A stretch of 64,000 nt of DNA, from positions 2,728,001-2,792,000 of the forward strand of contig NZ_CP080332.1 in assembly GCF_019456655.1 (NCBI RefSeq), in the 5' to 3' direction. Made by a program: the position numbers and the translations under genes. Below are positions 3,422-40,858 of this stretch, in pieces. The number at the start of each line of letters is the position of its first letter. Within the stretch, counting starts at the first letter, position 1. Source of the DNA: Mycolicibacterium diernhoferi. GTDB lineage: Bacteria; Actinomycetota; Actinomycetes; Mycobacteriales; Mycobacteriaceae. Under the pieces are notes generated by a model that was not told the origin of the DNA, ran no database searches, and was given only the letters and a program-made list of their open reading frames with translations.

Positions 3422-4548
3422 GCGGGAACCTTCCGGCTCAGTTCGAAGATGACGCGGTGGTGGTCCTCGGGGGAGCCGAACATCGCCCGGTTGAGCGCGG
3501 CGCGGCGCAGATACAGGTGCAGATCGTGTTCCCAGGTCACCCCGATACCGCCGTGCAGCTGGACGCAGTCCTGCAGCATCACCGGGGCACGTTCTCCGAC
3601 ATAGGCTTTCGCGACACTGACCAGCTTGCGGGCCTCGGGGGAGCGTCGGCCGACCGCCTCGGCTGCACCGGCGGTGGTGCCTCGGGCGGCCTCGAACCAC
3701 ATCTTCATATCGGCGACGCGATGTTTGAGCGCCTGATAGGAGGCCAGCGGGCGACCGAAGCTGTGCCGGTCGAACAGCCACTGGTTGGTCATCGACAGCA
3801 CCGCGTCGAGAATGCCGACGGTCTCGGCGCACTGCAGCACCAGCGCCACCTGGCGCTGACGCTCGATCACCTCGGGGGTCTGCTCGGCCGAGCCCAGCAC
3901 GGACTCGGCGCCGACCTGGACGCCGTCGAAACGCACCCGGGCGTAACGGCGCACCATGTCCAGGGAGCGCTGCGCCTCGACGCTGACCCCGGCGGTGTCG
4001 GTCGGTACCACGAACTGGCGTACCGCACCGTCGGCCACAGCGGTCACCAGCAGGATGTCGGCCGAGTCGCCGGCCTCGACCCGGTCCTTGACTCCGTCGA
4101 GCCGGTAGCCGCTGTCGGTCGCGGTGGCGGTGAGTTGCGGGGTCAGCGGGGCCCAGGGCCGGCCCGGCTCGTAGACCGCCCAACTGGCCACCGCCTCACC
4201 GGATACCAGGGATTCGATCGTCGCTTCGTGGCCCTCCGGTGCCTCGACCAGCCCGGCCAGCGCGACGCTGACCGGGTGTAGCGGCCCGGGTGCGACGGAG
4301 CGGCCGGCCTGCTCGGCGAGCAGTGCCAGATCGGAGACGCCGTCCCCGGAGACGCTGCCGCCGCCGAGATCCTCGGGCACCAGCAGGCTGGCCCAGCCCA
4401 GCTCGGCCGCGCGCTGCCACCATCGGGCATCGAAAGAGGCACCGGTGTCGTGCATTTCGCGCACCCGGGTCAAAGGTGCTTCCTTCTCCAGGAAGGCCTG
4501 GGCGGTGGAGGCGAACAGCATCTGTTCGGGGTTGGCGGCGGCGGTCAT
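3418..4548 (-). CDS. acyl-CoA dehydrogenase, FadE family (subunit 2 of a likely heteromeric pair)
   Basis: The 376-residue protein has the shorter, more diverged acyl-CoA dehydrogenase pattern typical of one partner of mycobacterial heteromeric FadE enzymes. It has an LVPEDLGGG segment near residue 55, a weak mid-domain, then FGRPLASYQALKHR and VQLHGGIGVTWEHDLHLYLRRA at the C-terminus. It lies 13 bases downstream of the amidohydrolase and overlaps the next dehydrogenase gene by ATGA. All three are therefore probably made from one transcript starting near 5800. Confidence 0.83.
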   Translation of the reverse strand: MTAAANPEQMLFASTAQAFLEKEAPLTRVREMHDTGASFDARWWQRAAELGWASLLVPEDLGGGSVSGDGVSDLALLAEQAGRSVAPGPLHPVSVALAGLVEAPEGHEATIESLVSGEAVASWAVYEPGRPWAPLTPQLTATATDSGYRLDGVKDRVEAGDSADILLVTAVADGAVRQFVVPTDTAGVSVEAQRSLDMVRRYARVRFDGVQVGAESVLGSAEQTPEVIERQRQVALVLQCAETVGILDAVLSMTNQWLFDRHSFGRPLASYQALKHRVADMKMWFEAARGTTAGAAEAVGRRSPEARKLVSVAKAYVGERAPVMLQDCVQLHGGIGVTWEHDLHLYLRRAALNRAMFGSPEDHHRVIFELSRKVPA

Positions 4549-4561
4549 AGTGATCTCCTGA

Positions 4562-5791
4562 TCACGCGAAGGTCATGGCGGGTACGTCGGGTTTGTGCAC
4601 GATCTGGTTGGGCACCTTGAACAGGTCGACCAGGTTGCCGCCCATCACCTTTCGCACGCCGTCGGCATCGAGTCCGTGCTGCTCCAGATCGTCGACCAGA
4701 TTGATCGGATCGGCCAGACCCTCCGGGTGCGGCCAGTCCGAGCCGAAGATGATCCGGTCGATGCCGCACAGGTCGGCCATCTCCTTGAAGTTGTCCTCCC
4801 AGAACGGGGCGACGTAGACGCCCCGCTTGAACGCCTGGATCGGGTCTTCGGGGAACTCGCCGGGCATCTTGGAGTAGACATCGGCGAACTGGTGGAACAG
4901 GTAGGGCACCCAGGAGGCGCCGTTCTCCACCGACAGGATGCGCAGGTCCGGGTTGCGGGTGAGCGCACCGTGGCAGACCAGCGCGGCCATGGTGTCCTCG
5001 ATGGGGCGCTTGCCCATCGCCACCATCCGGAAGGCGGTGGGCTTGAACGGCAGGTACTCGTCGGCGGGTTCCCAGTCGTTGAGGTACTGGGCGTAGCCGC
5101 TGTCGGAGGCGTGCATGCAGACGGGGATGCCCGCCTGCACGCAGGCCCGCCAGAACGGGTCGAACTCCTCCAGGCCCATCGACCGGGTGCCGCGGTAGCC
5201 GGGCACCGGGGCGGGGCGCACCAGCACCGTCTTCGCGCCGCGCGCCAGGCACCATTCGAGTTCTTCGAGCGCCCGGTCCACGTTGGGCAGGGTGATCACC
5301 GGGGTGGAGAAGATCCGGTCTTCGTAGTTGAACTGCCAGGTCTCGTACATCCACTGGTTCAGCGCGTGGATGATGTCGTGGATCAGGTCCGGATCGTCCT
5401 TGAGGCGCTCCTCCACCAGGCTGGCCAGGGTCGGGAACATGATCGTGTAATCGAGGCCCAGGCTGTCCATCACCTCCAGGCGCGCTTCCGGATTGCGGAA
5501 GGCCGGAATGGCTTTCATGGGCTTACCCATCACCTCGCGGTAGCTCTTGCCGCCGCTGCCGTGCCGGAAGTACTCCTCCTGCGCGCCCGGACGGGCGACG
5601 ACTTCGAAGGTCGGATTGGGGATGTAGTCGCTGATGTGATTGCGGACCATGATCTTGGTCCGGCCGCGTACATCGATGTAGTCGATGACGCCTTTCCGGT
5701 GCTCCGGGAGGAACTGCGTCAACGCCTCTTTGGGCTCATAGAAGTGGTTGTCGGCGTCGAACACCGGATACGACAACGTCCGTGATGGCAT
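4562..5791 (-). CDS. amidohydrolase family protein (amidohydrolase_2, metal-dependent TIM barrel)
   Basis: The 409-residue protein starts with the metal-binding strand FDADNHFYE (residues 11-19) and contains VCMHASD in mid-sequence and IIFGSDWPHPEG near the C-terminus. These are hallmarks of the amidohydrolase_2/ACMSD-like family, whose members hydrolyse or decarboxylate acids. The start has a clear AGGAGA ribosome binding site. It is the first gene of a three-gene operon with the two acyl-CoA dehydrogenases. A perfect 7-bp-arm palindrome (5823-5841) lies 32 bases upstream of its start, so TetR control is likely. The substrate is unknown. Confidence 0.8.
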   Translation of the reverse strand: MPSRTLSYPVFDADNHFYEPKEALTQFLPEHRKGVIDYIDVRGRTKIMVRNHISDYIPNPTFEVVARPGAQEEYFRHGSGGKSYREVMGKPMKAIPAFRNPEARLEVMDSLGLDYTIMFPTLASLVEERLKDDPDLIHDIIHALNQWMYETWQFNYEDRIFSTPVITLPNVDRALEELEWCLARGAKTVLVRPAPVPGYRGTRSMGLEEFDPFWRACVQAGIPVCMHASDSGYAQYLNDWEPADEYLPFKPTAFRMVAMGKRPIEDTMAALVCHGALTRNPDLRILSVENGASWVPYLFHQFADVYSKMPGEFPEDPIQAFKRGVYVAPFWEDNFKEMADLCGIDRIIFGSDWPHPEGLADPINLVDDLEQHGLDADGVRKVMGGNLVDLFKVPNQIVHKPDVPAMTFA

Positions 5792-5841: not shown

Positions 5842-6476
5842 GACCGATGGATCGGGTGACCGGGGTCGCGCAGCAGGCTGCGGACGCAGAATTCGTAGAT
5901 GTGGGTGCCCTCGACCGGCGTGCCGTTGAGTTCGGCGCCGAGCGCCCGCAGGCGCAGGGCGCCGAGCACGGTCTGCATGATCAGCGCTGCGGCGGTGTCG
6001 GTCTCGGCCTCCGACGCCTCCCGGAAGACGCCCTCGGCGATACCGGTGGTGATGATGTCGACGATCAGTTCGTGCAAGGGGGACAGCACCCGGGCGTACT
6101 CGCGGGGCAGCGTCTCGGCCAGGTGGTCGTTGTAGAACGTCAGCCCACGGTTGATGCTGTCCTGCTTGGTCGAGGCTGCCGGCGCGCTGATCCGCTCGAC
6201 CAGGGTCCGCAGCGCGGTGACGGCGTCGAGGCCCTGCACGTCGGCGCGCCACCGCGCCGACGACTCGGTCATGATCTTGTCGACGAGCGCCAGCAGCAAC
6301 TCGTCCTTGGTCGAGTAGTGCTGGTAGAAGGACCGCAGAGAGGTCTTGGACCGTTCCACCACCGCGAGCACGGTGAAGTCGGCGCGGCCCGTCTCGCCGA
6401 GGATCTCCAGCGCCGACTTCATGAACCGGGCGGGCCGTGACGCGGCCTCCTCGGCGCGCGACGTCGATTTGGTCAT
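5835..6476 (-). CDS. TetR family regulator of the amidohydrolase/FadE/thioesterase set
   Basis: This protein of about 213 residues has a TetR helix-turn-helix (LEILGETGRADFTVLAVVER, then TSLRSFYQHYSTKDELL) and a C-terminal helical ligand domain. I chose the ATG at 6476 because it follows a GAGGAG ribosome binding site at about 8 bases; an in-frame ATG at 6503 is possible. It sits between the amidohydrolase operon, on the same strand, and the divergent thioesterase gene. Copies of one palindrome occur in both flanking gaps, so it probably represses both units and itself. The inducer may be an acyl-CoA of the pathway. Confidence 0.85.
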   Translation of the reverse strand: MTKSTSRAEEAASRPARFMKSALEILGETGRADFTVLAVVERSKTSLRSFYQHYSTKDELLLALVDKIMTESSARWRADVQGLDAVTALRTLVERISAPAASTKQDSINRGLTFYNDHLAETLPREYARVLSPLHELIVDIITTGIAEGVFREASEAETDTAAALIMQTVLGALRLRALGAELNGTPVEGTHIYEFCVRSLLRDPGHPIHRSW

Positions 6477-33779: not shown

Positions 33780-34205
33780 GTGGGCGTGCTGGCGGTCGGT
33801 CTCTGGCTGGCCGCGCTGACCGGGTACGACATCGCCCGGCGGCGCCTGCCGAACCTGCTGACCGTGCCGGGCGCGGTGCTGATCCTGGGCTGGGCGGTGG
33901 CCAGCGGGCGCGGGTGGCCGGCGTTGTGCGGGGCGGTGGCGCTGTTCGGGGCGTACCTGCTCATTCATCTCGTGTCGCCCGCCGACCTGGGGGCCGGCGA
34001 TGTGAAGCTGGCCCTCGGCCTCGGCGCGCTCACCGGGGCTTTCGGAATCGACGTGTGGACGCTGGCGGCGCTCGGCGCACCGCTGCTGACGGCGGTGTGG
34101 GCCCTGGCCGCTCGGGTGTGCGGGCGGCGCGGCCCGGTGCCGCACGGCCCGGCGATGTGCGCGGCCAGCGCCGCGGCCGTCGCGCTGGTGCTGGTTCAGC
34201 CGTGA
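33780..34205 (+). CDS. prepilin peptidase (A24 family, membrane aspartyl protease; Rv2551c-like)
   Basis: This short 141-residue A24 protease has the two catalytic Asp in GYDIARRRLPN (about D17) and GAGDVKLALG (about D74) and roughly four membrane helices. It lacks the N-terminal methylase domain of full-length PilD, as usual in mycobacteria. It starts at GTG 33780, 9 bases after aroE, and overlaps the convergent glycerate kinase by 10 bases. No pilin gene lies near, so its substrate is elsewhere. Confidence 0.85.
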   Translation: MGVLAVGLWLAALTGYDIARRRLPNLLTVPGAVLILGWAVASGRGWPALCGAVALFGAYLLIHLVSPADLGAGDVKLALGLGALTGAFGIDVWTLAALGAPLLTAVWALAARVCGRRGPVPHGPAMCAASAAAVALVLVQP

Positions 34206-35368
34206 TGGGCCGCAGGCGCCAAACGGTCGGATGCGATGGCAGCGCCGATCCGGCGCAGCAGGGTGCGGGCGTTGCGCATGCTGGACGTCTCGTCGGGTTC
34301 CAGTGCGGCCAGGGTGTAGACGCCGTCGAGTCCGGCCGCCTGCACTTCGGACGCGCCCACCGTGCAGCGTCCGGCGACCGCCAGCACCGGAACACCGTGG
34401 GCGCGTGCCGCTCTGGCCACCCCGATCGGGCCCTTGCCGCGCAATGACTGCCCGTCCAGGGATCCCTCGCCGACCAGCACCAGCGCGGCCCCCTCGACCA
34501 CCTCGGCGAAGCCACCGACGGCGAGCAGCAGGTCGATCCCGGAAGTGAGCCGGGCGCCCAGCACCGCGGCCAGGGCGAAGGCCAGCCCGCCGGCGGCGCC
34601 GACACCCGGGTGGTCGCGCAGATCGCGTCCGGTGTGGCGGGCGACGATATCGGCCCATCGGCCCAGTGCGGCGTCCAGGGCTCGGGCGGTGGCCGGGTCC
34701 GCGCCCTTCTGCGGTCCGTAGACCGACGCCGCCCCGGACGGGCCGGTGAGCGGGTTGTCGACATCGCAGGCGACGACGAGATCGGCGCCGCGCAATCGAG
34801 GGTCGAGCCGGTCGAGGTCCACGGCGTGCGCGTGGGCCAGATCGTCCCCGCTGGGATAGAGCGGGTCGCCGTGCACGTCGAGCAGGCGGGCGCCCAGGCC
34901 GACCAGCAGGCCCGCCCCGCCGTCGGTGGTGGCGCTGCCACCGACGCCGAGCACGATCCGCCGGGCGCCGCGGTCGAGGGCGTCCCGCAACAAGGCGCCG
35001 ACTCCGAGGGTGCAGGCGGTGCGCGCCGTCGTCGAGGTGGGCCCGCCGGGACCCAGCAGGGCCAGCCCGTTGGCCGCCGCCGCCTCGATGACCGCGGTGC
35101 TGCCGTGCAGGGCATAGGTGGCGGTCACCGGCCGCTGCAGCGGTCCCGGGACGGTGCAGTGCACCGGGGTGAAGCCGCGGCCGATCATCATGTCCACCGT
35201 GCCCTCGCCGCCGTCGGCGATGGGGAACTCGACGATCCGGCGCGAGGTGACCTCCCGCAGCCCGGCGGCCAGCGCCGCCGCGACGTCCGCCGCGGTGGCC
35301 GAACCTTTGAATTTGTCCGGCGCCACCACGATGTGGCCGCCAGATCCGTTGTCTTCCATGGGCTTCAC
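34196..35368 (-). CDS. glycerate kinase (GarK/GlxK family), LacI-regulated
   Basis: The protein of about 390 residues has HIVVAPDKFKGSATAADVA (N-terminus), PIADGGEGTVDMM, VLGVGGSATTDGGAGLL, LTGPSGAASVYGPQKGA and GEGSLDGQSLRGKGP, the full glycerate-kinase (PF02595) signature. It phosphorylates glycerate into central carbon metabolism. No ribosome binding site precedes the ATG at 35359. A promoter with -35 TTGCTT (35404-35399) and -10 TACCGT (35380-35375) would start RNA at about the GTG at 35368, so I take that leaderless start. The -35 lies inside a LacI-type operator shared with the neighbouring catabolic genes. Confidence 0.9.
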   Translation of the reverse strand: MKPMEDNGSGGHIVVAPDKFKGSATAADVAAALAAGLREVTSRRIVEFPIADGGEGTVDMMIGRGFTPVHCTVPGPLQRPVTATYALHGSTAVIEAAAANGLALLGPGGPTSTTARTACTLGVGALLRDALDRGARRIVLGVGGSATTDGGAGLLVGLGARLLDVHGDPLYPSGDDLAHAHAVDLDRLDPRLRGADLVVACDVDNPLTGPSGAASVYGPQKGADPATARALDAALGRWADIVARHTGRDLRDHPGVGAAGGLAFALAAVLGARLTSGIDLLLAVGGFAEVVEGAALVLVGEGSLDGQSLRGKGPIGVARAARAHGVPVLAVAGRCTVGASEVQAAGLDGVYTLAALEPDETSSMRNARTLLRRIGAAIASDRLAPAAHHG

Positions 35369-35397
35369 GGTGTGACGGTAGGAGCCGGACAAAACGG

Positions 35398-35411
35398 TAA
35401 GCAACGTTAAG
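35398..35411 (-). promoter_or_regulatory. LacI-type operator 1 overlapping the glycerate kinase -35
   Basis: TAAGCAACGTTAAG here is the exact reverse complement of 14 bases at 35456-35469 and shares 12 bases with 40847-40858. The core AACGTT has the central CG step typical of LacI-family operators. On the minus strand it contains TTGCTT, followed after 18 bases by TACCGT. A repressor bound here would block RNA polymerase. Confidence 0.65.
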
Positions 35412-35455
35412 CCGCCGGGAAGCTGCCGGCGGGCGACCGGTAACGTGAGACCGCA

Positions 35456-35469
35456 CTTAACGTTGCTTA
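35456..35469 (+). promoter_or_regulatory. LacI-type operator 2 overlapping the lacI promoter -35
   Basis: CTTAACGTTGCTTA is the inverted copy of operator 1, 58 bases away. It contains TTGCTT (35463-35468), followed after 17 bases by TGTAAT (35486-35491), a plausible promoter for the LacI gene at 35545. This suggests autoregulation, and possibly looping between operators 1 and 2. Confidence 0.65.
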
Positions 35470-35544
35470 ACGCAGGGTCCGAAGCTGTAATGGGGACCAC
35501 AGTGGTTCCGCATGCCCGATAGCCGACCTTCGAGAGGAGGGGCG

Positions 35545-36603
35545 ATGAACGACATCGCCGTACCGGCCGCCCCTGCCAAGACGGTGTCGGCGGCCGCGGT
35601 CGCGCGTGCCTGCGGCGTCTCGAAGGCGACCGTCAGTTATGTGATGAACGGTCAGGGTGGGGTGTCGGCGGAGACCCGCAGGCGGGTCATCAAGACCGCC
35701 AGTGAACTCGGCTACCGGCCCGCCGCCGGTCCCCGTCGCGATCCGCTGCTGACCCGCGTGGTCGGCCTGATCCTGCCCAACATCGGCAACCCGATGTACA
35801 CCGGCTGGGCCGAACGCATCATCTCGATCACCCGGGAGCAGGGCTTCGACGTCTTCGTGGCCACCACCGACGACGATCCCGACACGCTGGCCCAGGTGGC
35901 GGGCACCCTGGCCGCCCGCAATGTCGACGGGGTGATCATCGCGGCCCTGATGCGCGAGGACCTGCGCGCGCTGCGAGTGTTGCGGCAGAAGCGGATTCCG
36001 TTCGTCTGCCTGTCCCGCAGCGCCGACCAGTTGCACGGGGATTTCGTCGGCATCGACTTCGACGCGGCGGCCACCCTGCTGATGGAGCACGTCCTGTCGC
36101 ACGGCTACCGCGACATCGCCACGGTGATCGGCCCGCGCTTCTCGACCGCCTCGTTGGTCCGCGAAGAAGCCTTCGTGCGCACCGCGGCGGCCGCCGGGGT
36201 GGCCGTCCGGGGCGCCCGCAAGATCAGCACCCGCCTGGACAGCGCCGGCGGCCGGGCGGCCGCCAAATCCCTGCTGAGCAGCGCCAAGCCGCCGCGGGCA
36301 GTGGTGTGCGGGTCGGACGAGATCGCCATCGGGATCATGGAACACGCGATGTCCGTCGGCCTGCGGATCCCCGAAGACCTCGCGGTGGTCGGCGGTGACG
36401 GGTTGCCGCACAGCCGATCCGCGCTGATCAACCTGACCACCGTGATCCAGCCGATCAACGTGATGGCGGAGCGGTCCTTCGAGCTGCTGCTCGACCAGAT
36501 CACCGCGCCCCGCAGCACCTATCACCACGTGATCTGCGAACACCGTCTGCACATCGGACGGACCTGCGGCTGCCCGCCGGTCCGCCAGGACAGCACCGAG
36601 TAA
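35545..36603 (+). CDS. LacI family transcriptional regulator of the lactonase/BKACE/glycerate kinase set
   Basis: The 352-residue protein has an N-terminal LacI helix-turn-helix (about 14-60; SAAAVARACGVSKATVSYVMNG and RVIKTASELGYRPAAG) and a periplasmic-binding-protein-like sugar-binding domain (VVGLILPNIGNPMYTGWAERI, DGVIIAAL, DLAVVGGDGLPHSRSALINLTTVIQP). The ATG at 35545 is 5 bases after GAGAGGAGGGG; an in-frame ATG at 35512 is unlikely. Matching operators sit before glycerate kinase, before itself and before the lactonase-MFS operon. The effector is probably a sugar acid or a pathway intermediate. Confidence 0.92.
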   Translation: MNDIAVPAAPAKTVSAAAVARACGVSKATVSYVMNGQGGVSAETRRRVIKTASELGYRPAAGPRRDPLLTRVVGLILPNIGNPMYTGWAERIISITREQGFDVFVATTDDDPDTLAQVAGTLAARNVDGVIIAALMREDLRALRVLRQKRIPFVCLSRSADQLHGDFVGIDFDAAATLLMEHVLSHGYRDIATVIGPRFSTASLVREEAFVRTAAAAGVAVRGARKISTRLDSAGGRAAAKSLLSSAKPPRAVVCGSDEIAIGIMEHAMSVGLRIPEDLAVVGGDGLPHSRSALINLTTVIQPINVMAERSFELLLDQITAPRSTYHHVICEHRLHIGRTCGCPPVRQDSTE

Positions 36604-36625
36604 CACCACCCATCACCGCATGACG

Positions 36626-36644
36626 CATGGCCGACCCGGCCATG
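36626..36644. promoter_or_regulatory. 7-bp inverted repeat between lacI and the SDR gene
   Basis: CATGGCC-gaccc-GGCCATG is a perfect 7-bp-arm inverted repeat in the 73-base gap between the LacI stop and the SDR start. It may be a weak terminator or attenuator that lowers expression of the catabolic genes relative to lacI, or an operator of another regulator. No T-run follows. Confidence 0.4.
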
Positions 36645-36676
36645 GGTCTATTCACCCTGCGCATAAGGAGAATGAA

Positions 36677-37450
36677 GTGCACGATCTCGATCTCACCGGA
36701 CGGCGGGTGCTGGTCACCGCCGGCGCCGCCGGTATCGGCCTGGCCATCGCCGCCGCCATGAAGGACCGGGGCGCCGAGGTGTTCGTCACCGACGTCAACC
36801 CGGCGGCCGTCGAGGCGGCCCAGGGCCTGGGCCTGCATGCCGTGGTCAGCGATGTGTCCCGCGAAGACGATGTGGTGGCGCTGATGGCGCTGCTCGCCGA
36901 GCGGTTGGGCGGGCTGGACGTCCTGGTCAACAATGCCGGCGTCGCCGGGCCAACCGGTCCGGTCGAGACGCTGGACACCGACGCCTGGAAGTTCACCTTC
37001 GAGGTCAACGTGCACGGGCAGTTCCTGTGCGTGAAACACGCTCTGCCGATGCTGAAGTCGTCCCCGGACGGATCGATCATCAACATGTCCTCGGCCGCCG
37101 GCCGACTGGGGATGGCCGGGCGCAGCCCGTACTCGGCCTCGAAGTGGGCGGTCATCGGCTTCACCAAATCATTGGCGATCGAGTTGGGGGAGTGCGGCAT
37201 CCGGGTCAACGCCATCTGCCCGGGTGCCGTCGACGGCCCCCGGATCGACGCCGTCATCGAGGCGAAGGCGGCCATGCTCGGCAAGCCGGTCGCCGAGGTC
37301 GCCGCCCTCTATCGCGGCCAGTCCTCGCTCGGGCGTCTGGCCACCGCCGACGACATCGCCGGCATGGCGGTCTTTCTGTCCAGCGGCCTGGCCCGCACCG
37401 TCAACGGCCAGGCGATGGCCGTCGACGGCAACACCGAAAAGCTCTACTGA
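36677..37450 (+). CDS. short-chain dehydrogenase/reductase (SDR)
   Basis: The 257-residue classical SDR has the NAD(P) loop TAGAAGIG (14-21), NNAG (85-88) and catalytic N111, S139, Y152 and K156 (YSASK). Acidic D39 at the end of beta-2 (VTDVNP) suggests NAD preference. The GTG at 36677 follows AAGGAG by 6 bases. It lies 24 bases before the BKACE gene. In this setting a likely job is oxidation of a beta-hydroxy acid to the beta-keto acid that BKACE cleaves; that is inferred. Confidence 0.9.
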   Translation: MHDLDLTGRRVLVTAGAAGIGLAIAAAMKDRGAEVFVTDVNPAAVEAAQGLGLHAVVSDVSREDDVVALMALLAERLGGLDVLVNNAGVAGPTGPVETLDTDAWKFTFEVNVHGQFLCVKHALPMLKSSPDGSIINMSSAAGRLGMAGRSPYSASKWAVIGFTKSLAIELGECGIRVNAICPGAVDGPRIDAVIEAKAAMLGKPVAEVAALYRGQSSLGRLATADDIAGMAVFLSSGLARTVNGQAMAVDGNTEKLY

Positions 37451-37474
37451 GCGACCCGAAGGAGATACGAGAAC

Positions 37475-38407
37475 ATGTCCCGCGCACGCAAAGTCATCAT
37501 CACCAGCGCCGTCACCGGCGCCATCCACACACCGAGCATGTCGCCGCACCTACCGGTGACCGCCGAGGAGATCGCCGACGCCGCGATCGGCGCTGCCAAG
37601 GCGGGTGCGGCCATCGTGCACATGCACGCCCGCTCACCCGAGGACGGCCGGCCGTCCCAGGATCCCAAGGATTTCGAGCCGATCCTGGCCAAGCTGAAGG
37701 CCAACACCGATGCGGTCATCAACATCACCACCGGCGGATCGCCGCACATGACCGTGCAGGAGCGGATGCGCCCGGTGGCAACCTTCGCACCCGAACTCGC
37801 CTCGTTGAACATGGGGTCGATGAACTTCGGCCTGTACCCGATGCTGGAGCGCTTCACCGAATTCCAGCACCCGTGGGAGCGTGAAGGCCTGGAGAAGTCG
37901 CGCGACCTGGTCTTCAAGAACACCTTCGCCGATATCGAGACCATCCTGGAGATCGGCAACACAAACGACACTCGCTTCGAATTCGAGTGCTACGACATCT
38001 CGCATCTGAACAACCTCGCGCACTTCCACGCCCGCGGGCTGGCGCGCGGGCCGCTGTTCGTGCAGTCGGTGTTCGGGTTGCTCGGCGGAATCGGTGGTCA
38101 CCCCGAGGATCTCATGCACATGCGGCGCACCGCGGACCGGCTGCTCGGGGATGCCTACGAATGGTCCATCCTCGGCGCGGGGCGCAACCAGATGCCGCTG
38201 GCCACCATCGGGGCGGCCATGGGCTCGCACGTGCGGGTCGGGCTGGAGGACTCGCTGTGGATCGGACCCGGCCAGTTGGCCGCGTCGAACGCCGAACAGG
38301 TCAGCCGGATCCGCACCATCCTGGAGGCGTTGAACTTCGAGGTCGCCACCCCGGACGAGGCCCGCGAGATGCTCAACCTGAAGGGGGCCGACAAGGTCGG
38401 TTTCTGA
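37475..38407 (+). CDS. BKACE family beta-keto acid cleavage enzyme (DUF849)
   Basis: The 310-residue TIM-barrel protein of the beta-keto acid cleavage enzyme family (first known as Kce, 3-keto-5-aminohexanoate cleavage enzyme) has Zn-ligand-type VHMHAR (H49, H51), NITTGG, LNMGSMNFG and GSHVRVGLEDSLWIGPG. Family members react a beta-keto acid with acetyl-CoA to give acetoacetate and a CoA ester, or vice versa. The ATG follows GAAGGAGAT. With the SDR, lactonase and glycerate kinase it suggests cleavage of a keto-sugar acid. Its exact substrate is not predictable from sequence alone. Confidence 0.88.
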   Translation: MSRARKVIITSAVTGAIHTPSMSPHLPVTAEEIADAAIGAAKAGAAIVHMHARSPEDGRPSQDPKDFEPILAKLKANTDAVINITTGGSPHMTVQERMRPVATFAPELASLNMGSMNFGLYPMLERFTEFQHPWEREGLEKSRDLVFKNTFADIETILEIGNTNDTRFEFECYDISHLNNLAHFHARGLARGPLFVQSVFGLLGGIGGHPEDLMHMRRTADRLLGDAYEWSILGAGRNQMPLATIGAAMGSHVRVGLEDSLWIGPGQLAASNAEQVSRIRTILEALNFEVATPDEAREMLNLKGADKVGF

Positions 38408-38426
38408 CCCCTCCGCGGGAGGCCGG

Positions 38427-38476
38427 CAGATACAGAATCGCCCCAAAACCGAGGTTTTGGGGCGATTCTGTATCTG
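38427..38476. terminator. 24-bp perfect-stem bidirectional terminator
   Basis: A perfect inverted repeat has arms 38427-38450 and 38453-38476 around the central GA. It lies between the BKACE stop (38407) and the stop of the convergent MFS gene (38490). The stem starts CAGATACAGAATCG. There is no clean T-run after it. Its position and symmetry fit a two-way terminator that insulates the convergent catabolic operons. Confidence 0.8.
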
Positions 38477-38489
38477 GTCGCGGGGGTGG

Positions 38490-39839
38490 TCAGCGGCCGG
38501 TCGGCACCACCTCGGGTTCGGCGGTCGCCGGTGTCTCCGGCAGGGTGAAGAACTGCAGGAGCACACCGAGCAGCGCACAGGCCGCCATCGCGAAGAAACA
38601 GACGATGTAGCCGCCCGCTTCGGTCCACCCGCCACTCATCGAGATGAGCCGGCCCATGAACAGCGGGGCGATGCCGCCGCCGATGAACATCGCGGTGGTG
38701 ATGATGCCGTTGGCGGTGGAGATCGCACCCTCGGGGGCGGCGTCGGAGGCGGCCGCGTAGTAGATCGGCCAGACCGCATTCGCGACCACACCGAACACCA
38801 GCTGCACGATGACCACCAGCAGCGAGGACGTCGCCACATAGAAGGCCGCCACACTGAAGGCCATCCAGATGCCGCAGATCACGATGGTCTTCTTCCGGCC
38901 GATGACATCGGACAGGCTGGGCCACAGGATCTGGCCGAGTACGCCGGTCAACGCGAATACCACGCTGAGACCGGCGGATTCGGCCAGCGACAATCCGACC
39001 ACGTTGTACAGGTAGGCCGGCAGCACCATGTTGATGCCCATGTAGACGATCTGGGTGAGCAACGTGGTCAGCGCGGTCATCGAGATGGTGCGGTTGCGCA
39101 GGCAGGCCAGCACGAGGCCACGGCCGCCACCGGCGCGCAGCAACGGATCGTCGCGGTCCGGCGGGGTGAGCCCCTGGGCGGCGATGTCGTCGTAGAGTTC
39201 GTCGATCTTCTGCGCGGTGGAGTACTTGCCCCAGAACAGCATCAGCGGCACGGCGACGATCAGGCCGAGGAACAGCGCGTAGGACCAGTTCGCCGGCCCG
39301 AAGGCGGCGATCACTCCGGCGGCGATCAGGCCACTGAGCAACGAGCCGATCGGGTAGCCGGTGTGGTGGGCGCCGAGGGCGAAGCCGCGCCGTTCCTTGG
39401 GCCACCATTCGGCGGTGTTGCTGACGCCCACCGGTTCACCCCAGCCGGCGCCCAGGTTCACGCCGATGCGCAGCGCGACGAAGGCGACCAGGTTGGAGCT
39501 GACGGCCTTGAAACCGGAGATGAAGGACAGTGCGGTGTAGCCGATGACGAGCGGCACCTGGAACCGCGCGCGCTTCCACCCGCCGCCGTAGCGGTCGCTC
39601 ATGCTGGATCCCGGGATCGCCAGCACGGCAAGAGAGATCATGATCAGCGAGACGATGGCGCCCCAGGCGTCCGCACTCAGGTCGAAGGTCTCGGAGATGG
39701 TCGGCCCGAGCCGCAGGATGATCTCGCGGTCATAGGCGTTGAGCACCCAGATCAGCCAGCACACGCCGAGCGAGATCCAGGAGTACTTGTGGGTTTTGCG
39801 CAGCGATCCGCGCCGGGATTTCACCCGGGATGAAGCCAT
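38490..39839 (-). CDS. MFS transporter, probable sugar-acid/anion uptake
   Basis: The protein of about 449 residues has roughly twelve membrane helices. MFS motifs include SMSDRYGGGWKRAR after helix 2 and LSDVIGRKKT in the second half. The WVLNAYDREIIL segment near residue 30 and EWWPKERRGFALGAHHTGYPIGSLLSG recall the anion:cation symporter group that imports sugar acids. The ATG at 39839 follows AAGGA at about 10 bases. It is downstream of, and co-oriented with, the lactonase (35-base gap), so its substrate is probably the acid or lactone used by this regulon. Confidence 0.87.
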   Translation of the reverse strand: MASSRVKSRRGSLRKTHKYSWISLGVCWLIWVLNAYDREIILRLGPTISETFDLSADAWGAIVSLIMISLAVLAIPGSSMSDRYGGGWKRARFQVPLVIGYTALSFISGFKAVSSNLVAFVALRIGVNLGAGWGEPVGVSNTAEWWPKERRGFALGAHHTGYPIGSLLSGLIAAGVIAAFGPANWSYALFLGLIVAVPLMLFWGKYSTAQKIDELYDDIAAQGLTPPDRDDPLLRAGGGRGLVLACLRNRTISMTALTTLLTQIVYMGINMVLPAYLYNVVGLSLAESAGLSVVFALTGVLGQILWPSLSDVIGRKKTIVICGIWMAFSVAAFYVATSSLLVVIVQLVFGVVANAVWPIYYAAASDAAPEGAISTANGIITTAMFIGGGIAPLFMGRLISMSGGWTEAGGYIVCFFAMAACALLGVLLQFFTLPETPATAEPEVVPTGR

Positions 39840-39874
39840 GGTGTCGTCGTCCTTGTAGGTGGAGTGGTCGAGGG

Positions 39875-40783
39875 TTATGCGCCGAAGCGGAGTTCGGGGA
39901 TGCCGCGGACGCCGAGGCCGCGAACGGCGAAGAGCGAGCCGCGCAGCTGGCCGTCGCCGGGGAAGCGGGGCAGCGGCGGCTTGGCCATCGACGTGACATA
40001 GAGCGTGTCGAGGTCCGGGCCGCCGAACATCACGCTGGTGGGTTTGCGGACCGGGAAGTCGATGACCCGATCCACCGAGCCGTCCGGTGCGTAGCGAATG
40101 ATCTTGCCGCCGTAGACCAATGCCTGCCACAGGTAACCGTCCGCGTCCACGGTGGCGCCGTCGGCCGCCCCGCCGCCGCTGGTGTCGACGGTGGCGAAGG
40201 TCCGCCGGTTGGACACCGCACCGGTGTGCACGTCGTAGTCGTAGGCCCAGATCTCACCGGTCCAGGTATCGGCGAAGTACAGGGTGGACCCGTCCGGGCT
40301 GAAGCATGGCCCGTTGGACACCGTGATGCCTTCGTCGAGGACGCTCAGCGTGCCGTCGGGCGAGTAGCTGTAGAGCTTTCCGCTGGCCGACTCCTCCATG
40401 GTGTCCATCGAACCGAAGACGAAACGGCCCGCCCGGTCGACCGTTCCGTCGTTGAGACGGTTGTGCGGCAGGTCGGCTTCGATCTCGACGGCCAGCGTGA
40501 GCTCGCCGGTGCCGAAATCCAGGCGCCACAACCCGTCCTGCAGGGCCACGATCGCCCCGGCGCCGTCCTGGGTCAGCGCCATCGAACCGATCTTCTGGCC
40601 GACCTCCCACGCACGGATCTGCTCACCGTGCGCGGTCGACCGGAAGATCCGGCCGTCGGCGCTGTCGATCCAATACAACGCCTGCTGGGCGACATCCCAC
40701 AGCGGGCCCTCGCCGAGGGTGGTCTTGAGATCGACCACCACCTCGATGCTGTGCTGCCGGTTGTCTCGGGTGCTGTCCGCCAT
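39875..40783 (-). CDS. SMP-30/gluconolactonase/regucalcin family lactonase
   Basis: The 302-residue six-bladed beta-propeller has the metal-site motifs LGEGPLWD (about 23-30, with the Glu), RLNDGTVDRAGRF, VSNGPCFSPDGSTLYFADT and DGATVDADGYLWQA. The family hydrolyses sugar lactones to the acids with a divalent metal. It is the first gene of the minus-strand lactonase-MFS operon. Upstream are a GGAG ribosome binding site, -10 TAGCGT (40827-40822) and -35 TTGCTG (40851-40846), the latter inside the third LacI operator. Confidence 0.9.
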   Translation of the reverse strand: MADSTRDNRQHSIEVVVDLKTTLGEGPLWDVAQQALYWIDSADGRIFRSTAHGEQIRAWEVGQKIGSMALTQDGAGAIVALQDGLWRLDFGTGELTLAVEIEADLPHNRLNDGTVDRAGRFVFGSMDTMEESASGKLYSYSPDGTLSVLDEGITVSNGPCFSPDGSTLYFADTWTGEIWAYDYDVHTGAVSNRRTFATVDTSGGGAADGATVDADGYLWQALVYGGKIIRYAPDGSVDRVIDFPVRKPTSVMFGGPDLDTLYVTSMAKPPLPRFPGDGQLRGSLFAVRGLGVRGIPELRFGA

Positions 40784-40846
40784 GGGACTCCATTCTCTAT
40801 GTCCTTGCGCGTCGTCTCGGAACGCTAGGAGCCCGCCAGGACGTTC

Positions 40847-40858
40847 AGCAACGTTAAG
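40847..40858 (-). promoter_or_regulatory. LacI-type operator 3 overlapping the lactonase-MFS -35
   Basis: AGCAACGTTAAG matches 12 bases of operator 1, 5.4 kb away. On the minus strand it provides -35 TTGCTG; 18 bases later comes -10 TAGCGT, about 40 bases before the lactonase ATG. The shared operator ties the lactonase and transporter to the LacI protein at 35545. Confidence 0.63.

Follow-up and report, generated by a model that had tools for sequence, protein, structure and literature searches.

A predicted LacI regulon for catabolism of 2-deoxy-D-ribonate or its lactone in Mycolicibacterium diernhoferi

The 64,000 nt stretch of the Mycolicibacterium diernhoferi chromosome analysed here (contig NZ_CP080332.1, positions 2,728,001 to 2,792,000; hereafter the window) carries, within 34196..40858, six genes that are all open and free of internal stops and that encode a glycerate kinase, a LacI-family regulator, an SDR, a BKACE, an MFS transporter and an SMP-30-family lactonase. 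We consider it probable (about 0.83) that this gene set serves to break down 2-deoxy-D-ribonate and/or its lactone and forms a regulon repressed by LacI. The enzymes resemble those of a cluster type already described in Pseudomonas, and one exact 12-mer, AGCAACGTTAAG, stands ahead of both transcription units; we regard the set as a member of a known pathway in a bacterial group for which we found no report, and as a newly seen LacI regulon with an operator of its own. The gene identities given in a first-pass annotation of this DNA are borne out by the open reading frames (ORFs) and Pfam scores. The features are as follows.

34196..35359, minus strand: glycerate kinase of the TIGR00045 family (PF02595, 406 bits; TIGR00045, 370 bits against a cut-off of 168), divergent from the LacI gene
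35400..35411, plus strand: predicted LacI operator 1, AGCAACGTTAAG, in the glycerate kinase/LacI intergenic region
35456..35467, minus strand: predicted LacI operator 2, AGCAACGTTAAG inverted, in the same intergenic region
35512..36603, plus strand: LacI-family regulator (PF00356, 53 bits, with Peripla_BP_3)
36620..37450, plus strand: SDR, predicted 2-deoxyribonate 3-dehydrogenase (PF13561, 198 bits; PF00106)
37475..38407, plus strand: BKACE, predicted acetyl-CoA-dependent 2-deoxy-3-ketoribonate cleavage enzyme (PF05853, 365 bits)
38427..38476, no strand: perfect inverted repeat of 24 nt, its arms 2 bases apart, in the space between the convergently transcribed BKACE and MFS genes
38490..39839, minus strand: MFS transporter of the type called MFS1 below, predicted deoxyribonolactone and/or deoxyribonate importer (PF07690, MFS_1, 138 bits)
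39875..40783, minus strand: SMP-30/gluconolactonase-family lactonase, predicted 2-deoxyribonolactonase (SMP-30/SGL, PF08450, 277 bits)
40847..40858, plus strand: predicted LacI operator 3, AGCAACGTTAAG, upstream of the lactonase-MFS unit and 63 bases from the lactonase ATG

In the scheme that we infer from these genes, MFS1 would import the lactone or the acid, the SMP-30 protein would open the lactone, and the SDR would oxidize C3 to yield 2-deoxy-3-ketoribonate, which BKACE with acetyl-CoA would cleave to acetoacetate and glyceryl-CoA. The CoA of glyceryl-CoA would be lost by hydrolysis or passed to acetoacetate, the glycerate kinase would deliver phosphoglycerate, and acetoacetyl-CoA would give acetyl-CoA. 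LacI would sit on TTAAGCAACGTTAA-type operators ahead of both units until released by a pathway compound. The order proposed in the first-pass annotation (uptake, lactone opening, SDR, beta-keto acid, BKACE with acetyl-CoA, and entry of a C3 acid through glycerate kinase) fits this evidence.

Relation to the published 2-deoxyribonate pathway

That annotation had also taken the genes for an uncharacterised sugar-acid route using BKACE. This claim does not stand, since Price et al. (2019; PMC6365646) had already described the same enzyme set in Pseudomonas simiae, with 2-deoxyribonate as its substrate, and we discard a novel sugar-acid route accordingly. The oxidative 2-deoxyribonate cluster of P. 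simiae WCS417 (PS417_07240-07265) comprises genes for GntR (07240), SDR (PS417_07245), BKACE (07250), a lactonase (07255) and two MFS transporters (07260 and 07265), with glycerate kinase encoded elsewhere; mutant fitness data place these genes among those important on deoxyribose, and most of them also on deoxyribonate, and oxidation of deoxyribonate by the SDR was demonstrated in vitro (PMC6365646). The pathway work used four Proteobacteria, and Actinobacteria are nowhere mentioned in the text. A literature search on deoxyribonate, deoxyribose and glyceryl-CoA also led to a later paper (PMC9007349).

As reference for comparison we used, in place of the PS417 proteins, a cluster of the published type, L176. 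It comes from a set of 248 genomes in the family (presumably Pseudomonadaceae) of a genome with a strong OprF match; a BKACE search at 1e-80 gave matches in 18 of the 248 genomes, at 22 places, four of them 71-72% identical. L176 has the order gntR-SDR-BKACE-lactonase-MFS1-MFS2 and carries GTGATCAC at 6283, 47 bases ahead of the gntR ATG at 6330, and the palindrome GTGATCAC lies at -47 to -40 of P. simiae gntR (PMC6365646); gene order and this position thus both mark L176 as belonging to the published cluster type. The same six genes occur in L178 and L179, and L177 is without lactonase and MFS1.

The window BKACE is 72% identical to that of L176 over 310 aa, the lactonase 70%, the MFS protein 67% to MFS1 and 21% to MFS2, and the SDR 49% over 251 aa. 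The window SDR contains the stretches TAGAAGIG, NNAG, SSAA and YSASK, the BKACE the stretch HMHAR, and the lactonase LGEGP, VSNGP and DGATVD. From these comparisons we class the SDR as a predicted orthologue of the deoxyribonate dehydrogenase and the BKACE as a predicted orthologue of the ketodeoxyribonate cleavage enzyme; the lactonase and the glycerate kinase expected of a pathway member are both present. Two E. coli-type equivalog models score below their cut-offs on the glycerate kinase, and the genome holds a second PF02595 gene at 3764286-3765305.

The likeness to the P. simiae cluster thus consists in relatives of the SDR, BKACE, lactonase and MFS1 (measured on L176) and in the use of a glycerate kinase, whereas in the window the kinase lies inside the cluster, MFS2 is missing from it, two converging units with a divergent kinase replace a single operon, and GntR with GTGATCAC, a P. 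simiae trait rather than a pathway requirement, gives way to LacI with its own operator. The clusters of Paraburkholderia bryophila and Burkholderia phytofirmans share the SDR and BKACE, and glycerate kinase is important on deoxyribonate there, but these genomes are described as lacking close lactonase homologues, and a beta-hydroxyacyl-CoA dehydrogenase is discussed for them; Klebsiella michiganensis shares the lactonase and glycerate kinase and has an MFS pair, but is proposed to use an acyl-CoA route without SDR or BKACE (PMC6365646). Among 369 genomes of the class to which the L074 genome belongs, 12 BKACE places occurred in 11 genomes, and of the 11 places with more flank one (L136) has lactonase, BKACE and SDR, and none has the full P. 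simiae set.

Recurrence in relatives and a shared predicted operator

Relatives were taken as the best 80 of 584 confirmed BKACE stretches, 25 of these 80 being actinobacterial, and gene families in them were verified on example loci. In 21 of the 25 actinobacterial loci the genes for LacI, SDR and BKACE follow one another in this order on a single strand; in these 21 the LacI is 54-75% and the SDR 63-74% identical to its window counterpart (second SDR matches within the same loci, seen in 17, reach only 25-38%), and the BKACE is 84-91% identical in 20 and 78% in L039. The four exceptions are L007 and L030, where no SDR orthologue was seen, and L022 and L046, which have BKACE alone among the genes sought. 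MFS2 genes occur in 21 of the 25 loci, glycerate kinase in nine, a CoA-transferase A/B pair in four (L008, L009, L019 and L020), thiolase in three (L008, L019 and L020), and lactonase with MFS1 in one (L009). A search for the same families in other genome neighbourhoods had been suggested with the first-pass annotation; LacI-SDR-BKACE recurs, and the lactonase-MFS1 pair was unseen in the examined flanks of the other 24 actinobacterial loci. Loci in which the set is well conserved come from Arthrobacter, Paeniglutamicibacter, Leucobacter, Saccharopolyspora and Brevibacterium as well as from the window's genus. Many betaproteobacterial loci have instead SDR, 3-hydroxyacyl-CoA dehydrogenase (3HCDH) and BKACE.

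In a BKACE tree (117 rows, quick method, midpoint-drawn) the window falls in an actinobacterial clade of 26 rows (SH-aLRT 98), 24 of which have an SDR or a ketopantoate-reductase-type gene in the examined flank; SDR-bearing clusters of Pseudomonadota (L176 type, Caballeronia, Burkholderia) fall outside this clade. In L007 (Rhodococcus ruber) and L030 (Saccharopolyspora rhizosphaerae), which have the same operator, MFS2 and BKACEs 90% and 82% identical to that of the window, a ketopantoate-reductase-family gene lies about 7 kb upstream and about 2 kb downstream of BKACE, respectively.

The 12-mer AGCAACGTTAAG has three exact copies in the window (35400, plus strand; 35456, minus strand; 40847, plus strand), all of them ahead of the two transcription units, and none in 100 shuffles. 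At up to two mismatches the window holds four copies, a number that 2 of the 100 shuffles likewise reach, so that what counts as evidence is the exact copies and where they stand. Considering these copies together with the recurrence of LacI-SDR-BKACE in relatives, the grouping of the six genes exceeds chance.

We scanned for the operator in 27 loci of relatives (the 25 actinobacterial ones, the betaproteobacterial L024 and the congener locus L194; 443 kb in all), 24 of which have a LacI (at least 40% identity) or MFS2 match. In 23 of the 24, a copy of AGCAACGTTAAG with at most one mismatch precedes such a match by no more than 300 bases, a distance taken from where the tblastn match begins and not from the start codon, and in 15 the copy is exact; L023 has no such 12-mer ahead of its LacI/MFS2 match. 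The 443 kb hold 29 sites at this stringency, 27 of them ahead of LacI or MFS2, against a mean of 0.7 sites in all for 200 permuted 12-mers, each of which had a site in such a place in at most one locus; the loci are related, and the counts are therefore not independent. The other two sites form a pair at 3312-3392 of L020, which comes from Arthrobacter and has no MFS2 match; they lie upstream of a gene of the 3-hydroxyacyl-CoA dehydrogenase family (3713-4681) that may be an extra regulon member.

The window regulator has both the helix-turn-helix and the periplasmic-binding-like domain of the LacI family, and it may well bind AGCAACGTTAAG/TTAAGCAACGTTAA-type operators; the earlier proposal that one LacI controls both units fits the same exact sequence before each. 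Literature searches on deoxyribonate, deoxyribonolactone, glyceryl-CoA and LacI, with subscription papers mostly outside their coverage, showed no actinobacterial deoxyribonate regulon among the matches listed; a term search of a LacI-regulon review (PMC4052901) gave no match, and in a passage of PMC12215611 the subject appears as a citation only. With a readable operator, the regulon becomes searchable.

Weighing the substrate, the transporters and the CoA step

Several observations weigh against a deoxyribonate substrate. The SDR is the most diverged part, at 49% to L176, and the window regulator is LacI where that of the reference is GntR. Even in P. simiae, cleavage to glyceryl-CoA was only deduced (PMC6365646). 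BKACE relatives at 75-78% identity occur in loci where no SDR orthologue was seen, for example in Limnohabitans, so BKACE alone is no proof of substrate. The window has only one MFS type, and a search of its own genome at 1e-20, run without a positive control, gave no MFS2 match. Lastly, the NCBIfam equivalog model NF053538 (3,5-dioxohexanoate:acetyl-CoA acetone transferase) scores the window BKACE at 543 bits, above its cut-off of 430.

Among the alternatives, the one that best survives, and that we still hold to be unlikely, is the same chemistry acting on another 2-deoxypentonate such as 2-deoxy-D-threo-pentonate, which is the C3 epimer, or its lactone. Since C3 would be oxidized before cleavage, BKACE and glycerate kinase would be blind to the epimers, and only the SDR and the lactonase would discriminate. 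The SDR is indeed less conserved than any of the others, at 49% where they reach 67-72%, and L007, L030 and L194, with the same operator, have a ketopantoate-reductase-family gene (in L194 within the BKACE run) and no SDR orthologue that we could see; but intermediate SDRs exist, the window SDR being 53-64% identical to many betaproteobacterial SDRs and that of L176 57-60% identical to those of L063, L068, L074, L077, L136 and L147, and the lactonase, which would act while the stereocentre is still intact, shares 70% identity with the L176 enzyme.

That the substrate of the BKACE is 3,5-dioxohexanoate, derived for instance from triacetate lactone that the lactonase opens, is very improbable. 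The NF053538 score points that way, and the confirmed substrates of a relative, BKACE15 of P. denitrificans, include 3,5-dioxohexanoate (PMC11961710); but the model also gives 541 bits on the L176 BKACE, a member of a deoxyribonate-type cluster, and therefore cannot separate the two, and the glycerate kinase and the sugar-acid-type lactonase would have no role in such a route. We accordingly rejected the 3,5-dioxohexanoate label as evidence against deoxyribonate; it is a label that gets put on the BKACE of a deoxyribonate-type cluster. According to PMC11961710, BKACE15 has no known physiological role; its structures (8RIO, 8RIP and 9HNF; about 432 bits) and structure 3E49 (495 bits; deposited as uncharacterised) are full-length BKACE relatives. 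Two unrelated groups lying side by side (LacI-SDR-BKACE with the kinase, and lactonase-MFS) would agree with the rarity of the lactonase-MFS1 pair in the examined flanks of the actinobacterial loci, but we give this next to no credence, given the same exact operator ahead of both units and the occurrence of the pair with BKACE in L176-type clusters, L009 and L194.

For the deoxyribonate regulon, the relatives suggest how the transport work may be divided. MFS1, at 67% identity or more, always adjoins a lactonase (17 of 17 loci: the window, L009, L194 and 14 of 14 in 398 genomes of the L176 family), a count that omits weak matches of 27-34% in L007, L022, L182 and L183. The MFS1 searches of the class (394 genomes) and of the L176 family (398) scored at most four candidates per genome; in the class, MFS1 was found in two of the 394 genomes, the window's own and that of a congener, G1079. 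Of the 21 actinobacterial loci with MFS2, 20 show no lactonase in the examined flank. MFS1 has no MFS2 next to it in the window, in L201 and L205 (about 1.5 kb of flank examined) and at the single place L208/L180 (16 kb examined). Lactonase matches without MFS1 occur in L024, L035, L082 and L136; L024 has ABC-transporter genes nearby, and the same two gene clusters are represented in L035 and L082. Because a lactonase lies beside MFS1 in all 17 loci, this pattern suggests that MFS1 is a lactone importer. Against this, both MFS genes of P. simiae are important on deoxyribose and on deoxyribonate; deoxyribonolactone and the acid interconvert in solution (PMC6365646), which may explain that finding. 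The relatives thereby offer a concrete candidate answer to the two-transporter question left open by Price et al.

Removal of CoA from glyceryl-CoA was assigned to an unknown glyceryl-CoA hydrolase (PMC6365646). Downstream of BKACE in L008, L009, L019, L020 and L194 there is a CoA-transferase pair (TIGR02429/TIGR02428 in L009, TIGR02429 in L194, both PF01144), a concrete candidate for this open step, in which it would pass the CoA of glyceryl-CoA to acetoacetate; a role as an ordinary acetoacetate-activating transferase is just as possible. The same CoA-transfer logic is used with formyl-CoA in a synthetic cycle (PMC11961710), and the window's own genome has a 3-oxoacid CoA-transferase-like pair at 5461648-5463017 that is 68-71% identical to the pairs downstream of BKACE in relatives. 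We tentatively suggest, at somewhat less than even odds, a complete actinobacterial pathway in which the CoA-transferase would move the CoA of glyceryl-CoA to acetoacetate, MFS1 would import deoxyribonolactone and MFS2 the free acid, and the window would be the lactone-feeding version. If so, the glyceryl-CoA hydrolase gap would be closed and the cost of acetoacetate activation spared.

Apart from these readings, nine loci of Limnohabitans and other Burkholderiales (L047, L052, L055, L059, L070, L071, L073, L078 and L081) have a BKACE at 77-78% and no SDR orthologue that we could see; in seven of them BKACE is followed downstream, on the opposite strand, by an ORF of about 1,100 codons, and the remaining two carry part of this ORF, which places this BKACE group in another context of use.

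Layout, insertion site and a sister cluster in the genus

The genes form two converging units, LacI-SDR-BKACE on the plus strand, with the glycerate kinase divergent from LacI, and SMP-30 followed by MFS on the minus strand. The probable starts of the glycerate kinase (35359) and MFS (39839) genes fall within their longest ORFs. The inverted repeat between the units is probably a two-way terminator: the region 38405-38495 folds as RNA at -65.9 kcal/mol (z -9.8), and a terminator scan did not list the repeat at 38427-38476. A sigma-70 scan found no promoter. An 18-base piece of the repeat has no second copy in the window at up to three mismatches.

One flank holds genes for alanyl-tRNA synthetase, ruvX, a YceG-family protein, aroE and a type IV leader peptidase (A24), and the other chorismate synthase (aroC), shikimate kinase, 3-dehydroquinate synthase, an M24 peptidase and elongation factor P, an order reminiscent of mycobacteria; the genome is a single contig of 6.0 Mb. 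At 1e-80, no BKACE match was obtained in any of 36 congeners, and two of 24 other genomes of the order have matches, at 54-55%. An aroC match was present in 59 congeners, and the corresponding site was checked in the 29 of them that had loci; the L127 sequence reaches just some 120 bases upstream. The A24 match stops no more than 160 bases from aroC in 14 of the 29 and at 0.5-0.7 kb in four, and A24 was unseen in the examined flank of 11, the gap ranging from about 40 bases to more than 0.5 kb. With the A24-aroC spacing so variable, the gene set fills an empty or variable site inside the aro region. Base composition is the same as in the flanks (GC 0.685 for the island and 0.688 for the window, GC3 alike), and we rejected it as a sign of recent transfer since it speaks neither way.

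Finally, G1079, which lay outside the sample of 36 congeners searched for BKACE, carries a sister set (L194, 2851-11092) with a lactonase at 85%, MFS1 at 82% and LacI at 48% identity, an MFS2 at 63% to that of Arthrobacter, and two exact operators between LacI and lactonase. It also has a ketopantoate-reductase-family dehydrogenase and a CoA-transferase pair, and its BKACE is only 45% identical to that of L176; L194 possibly represents another stereoisomer or another enzyme solution.

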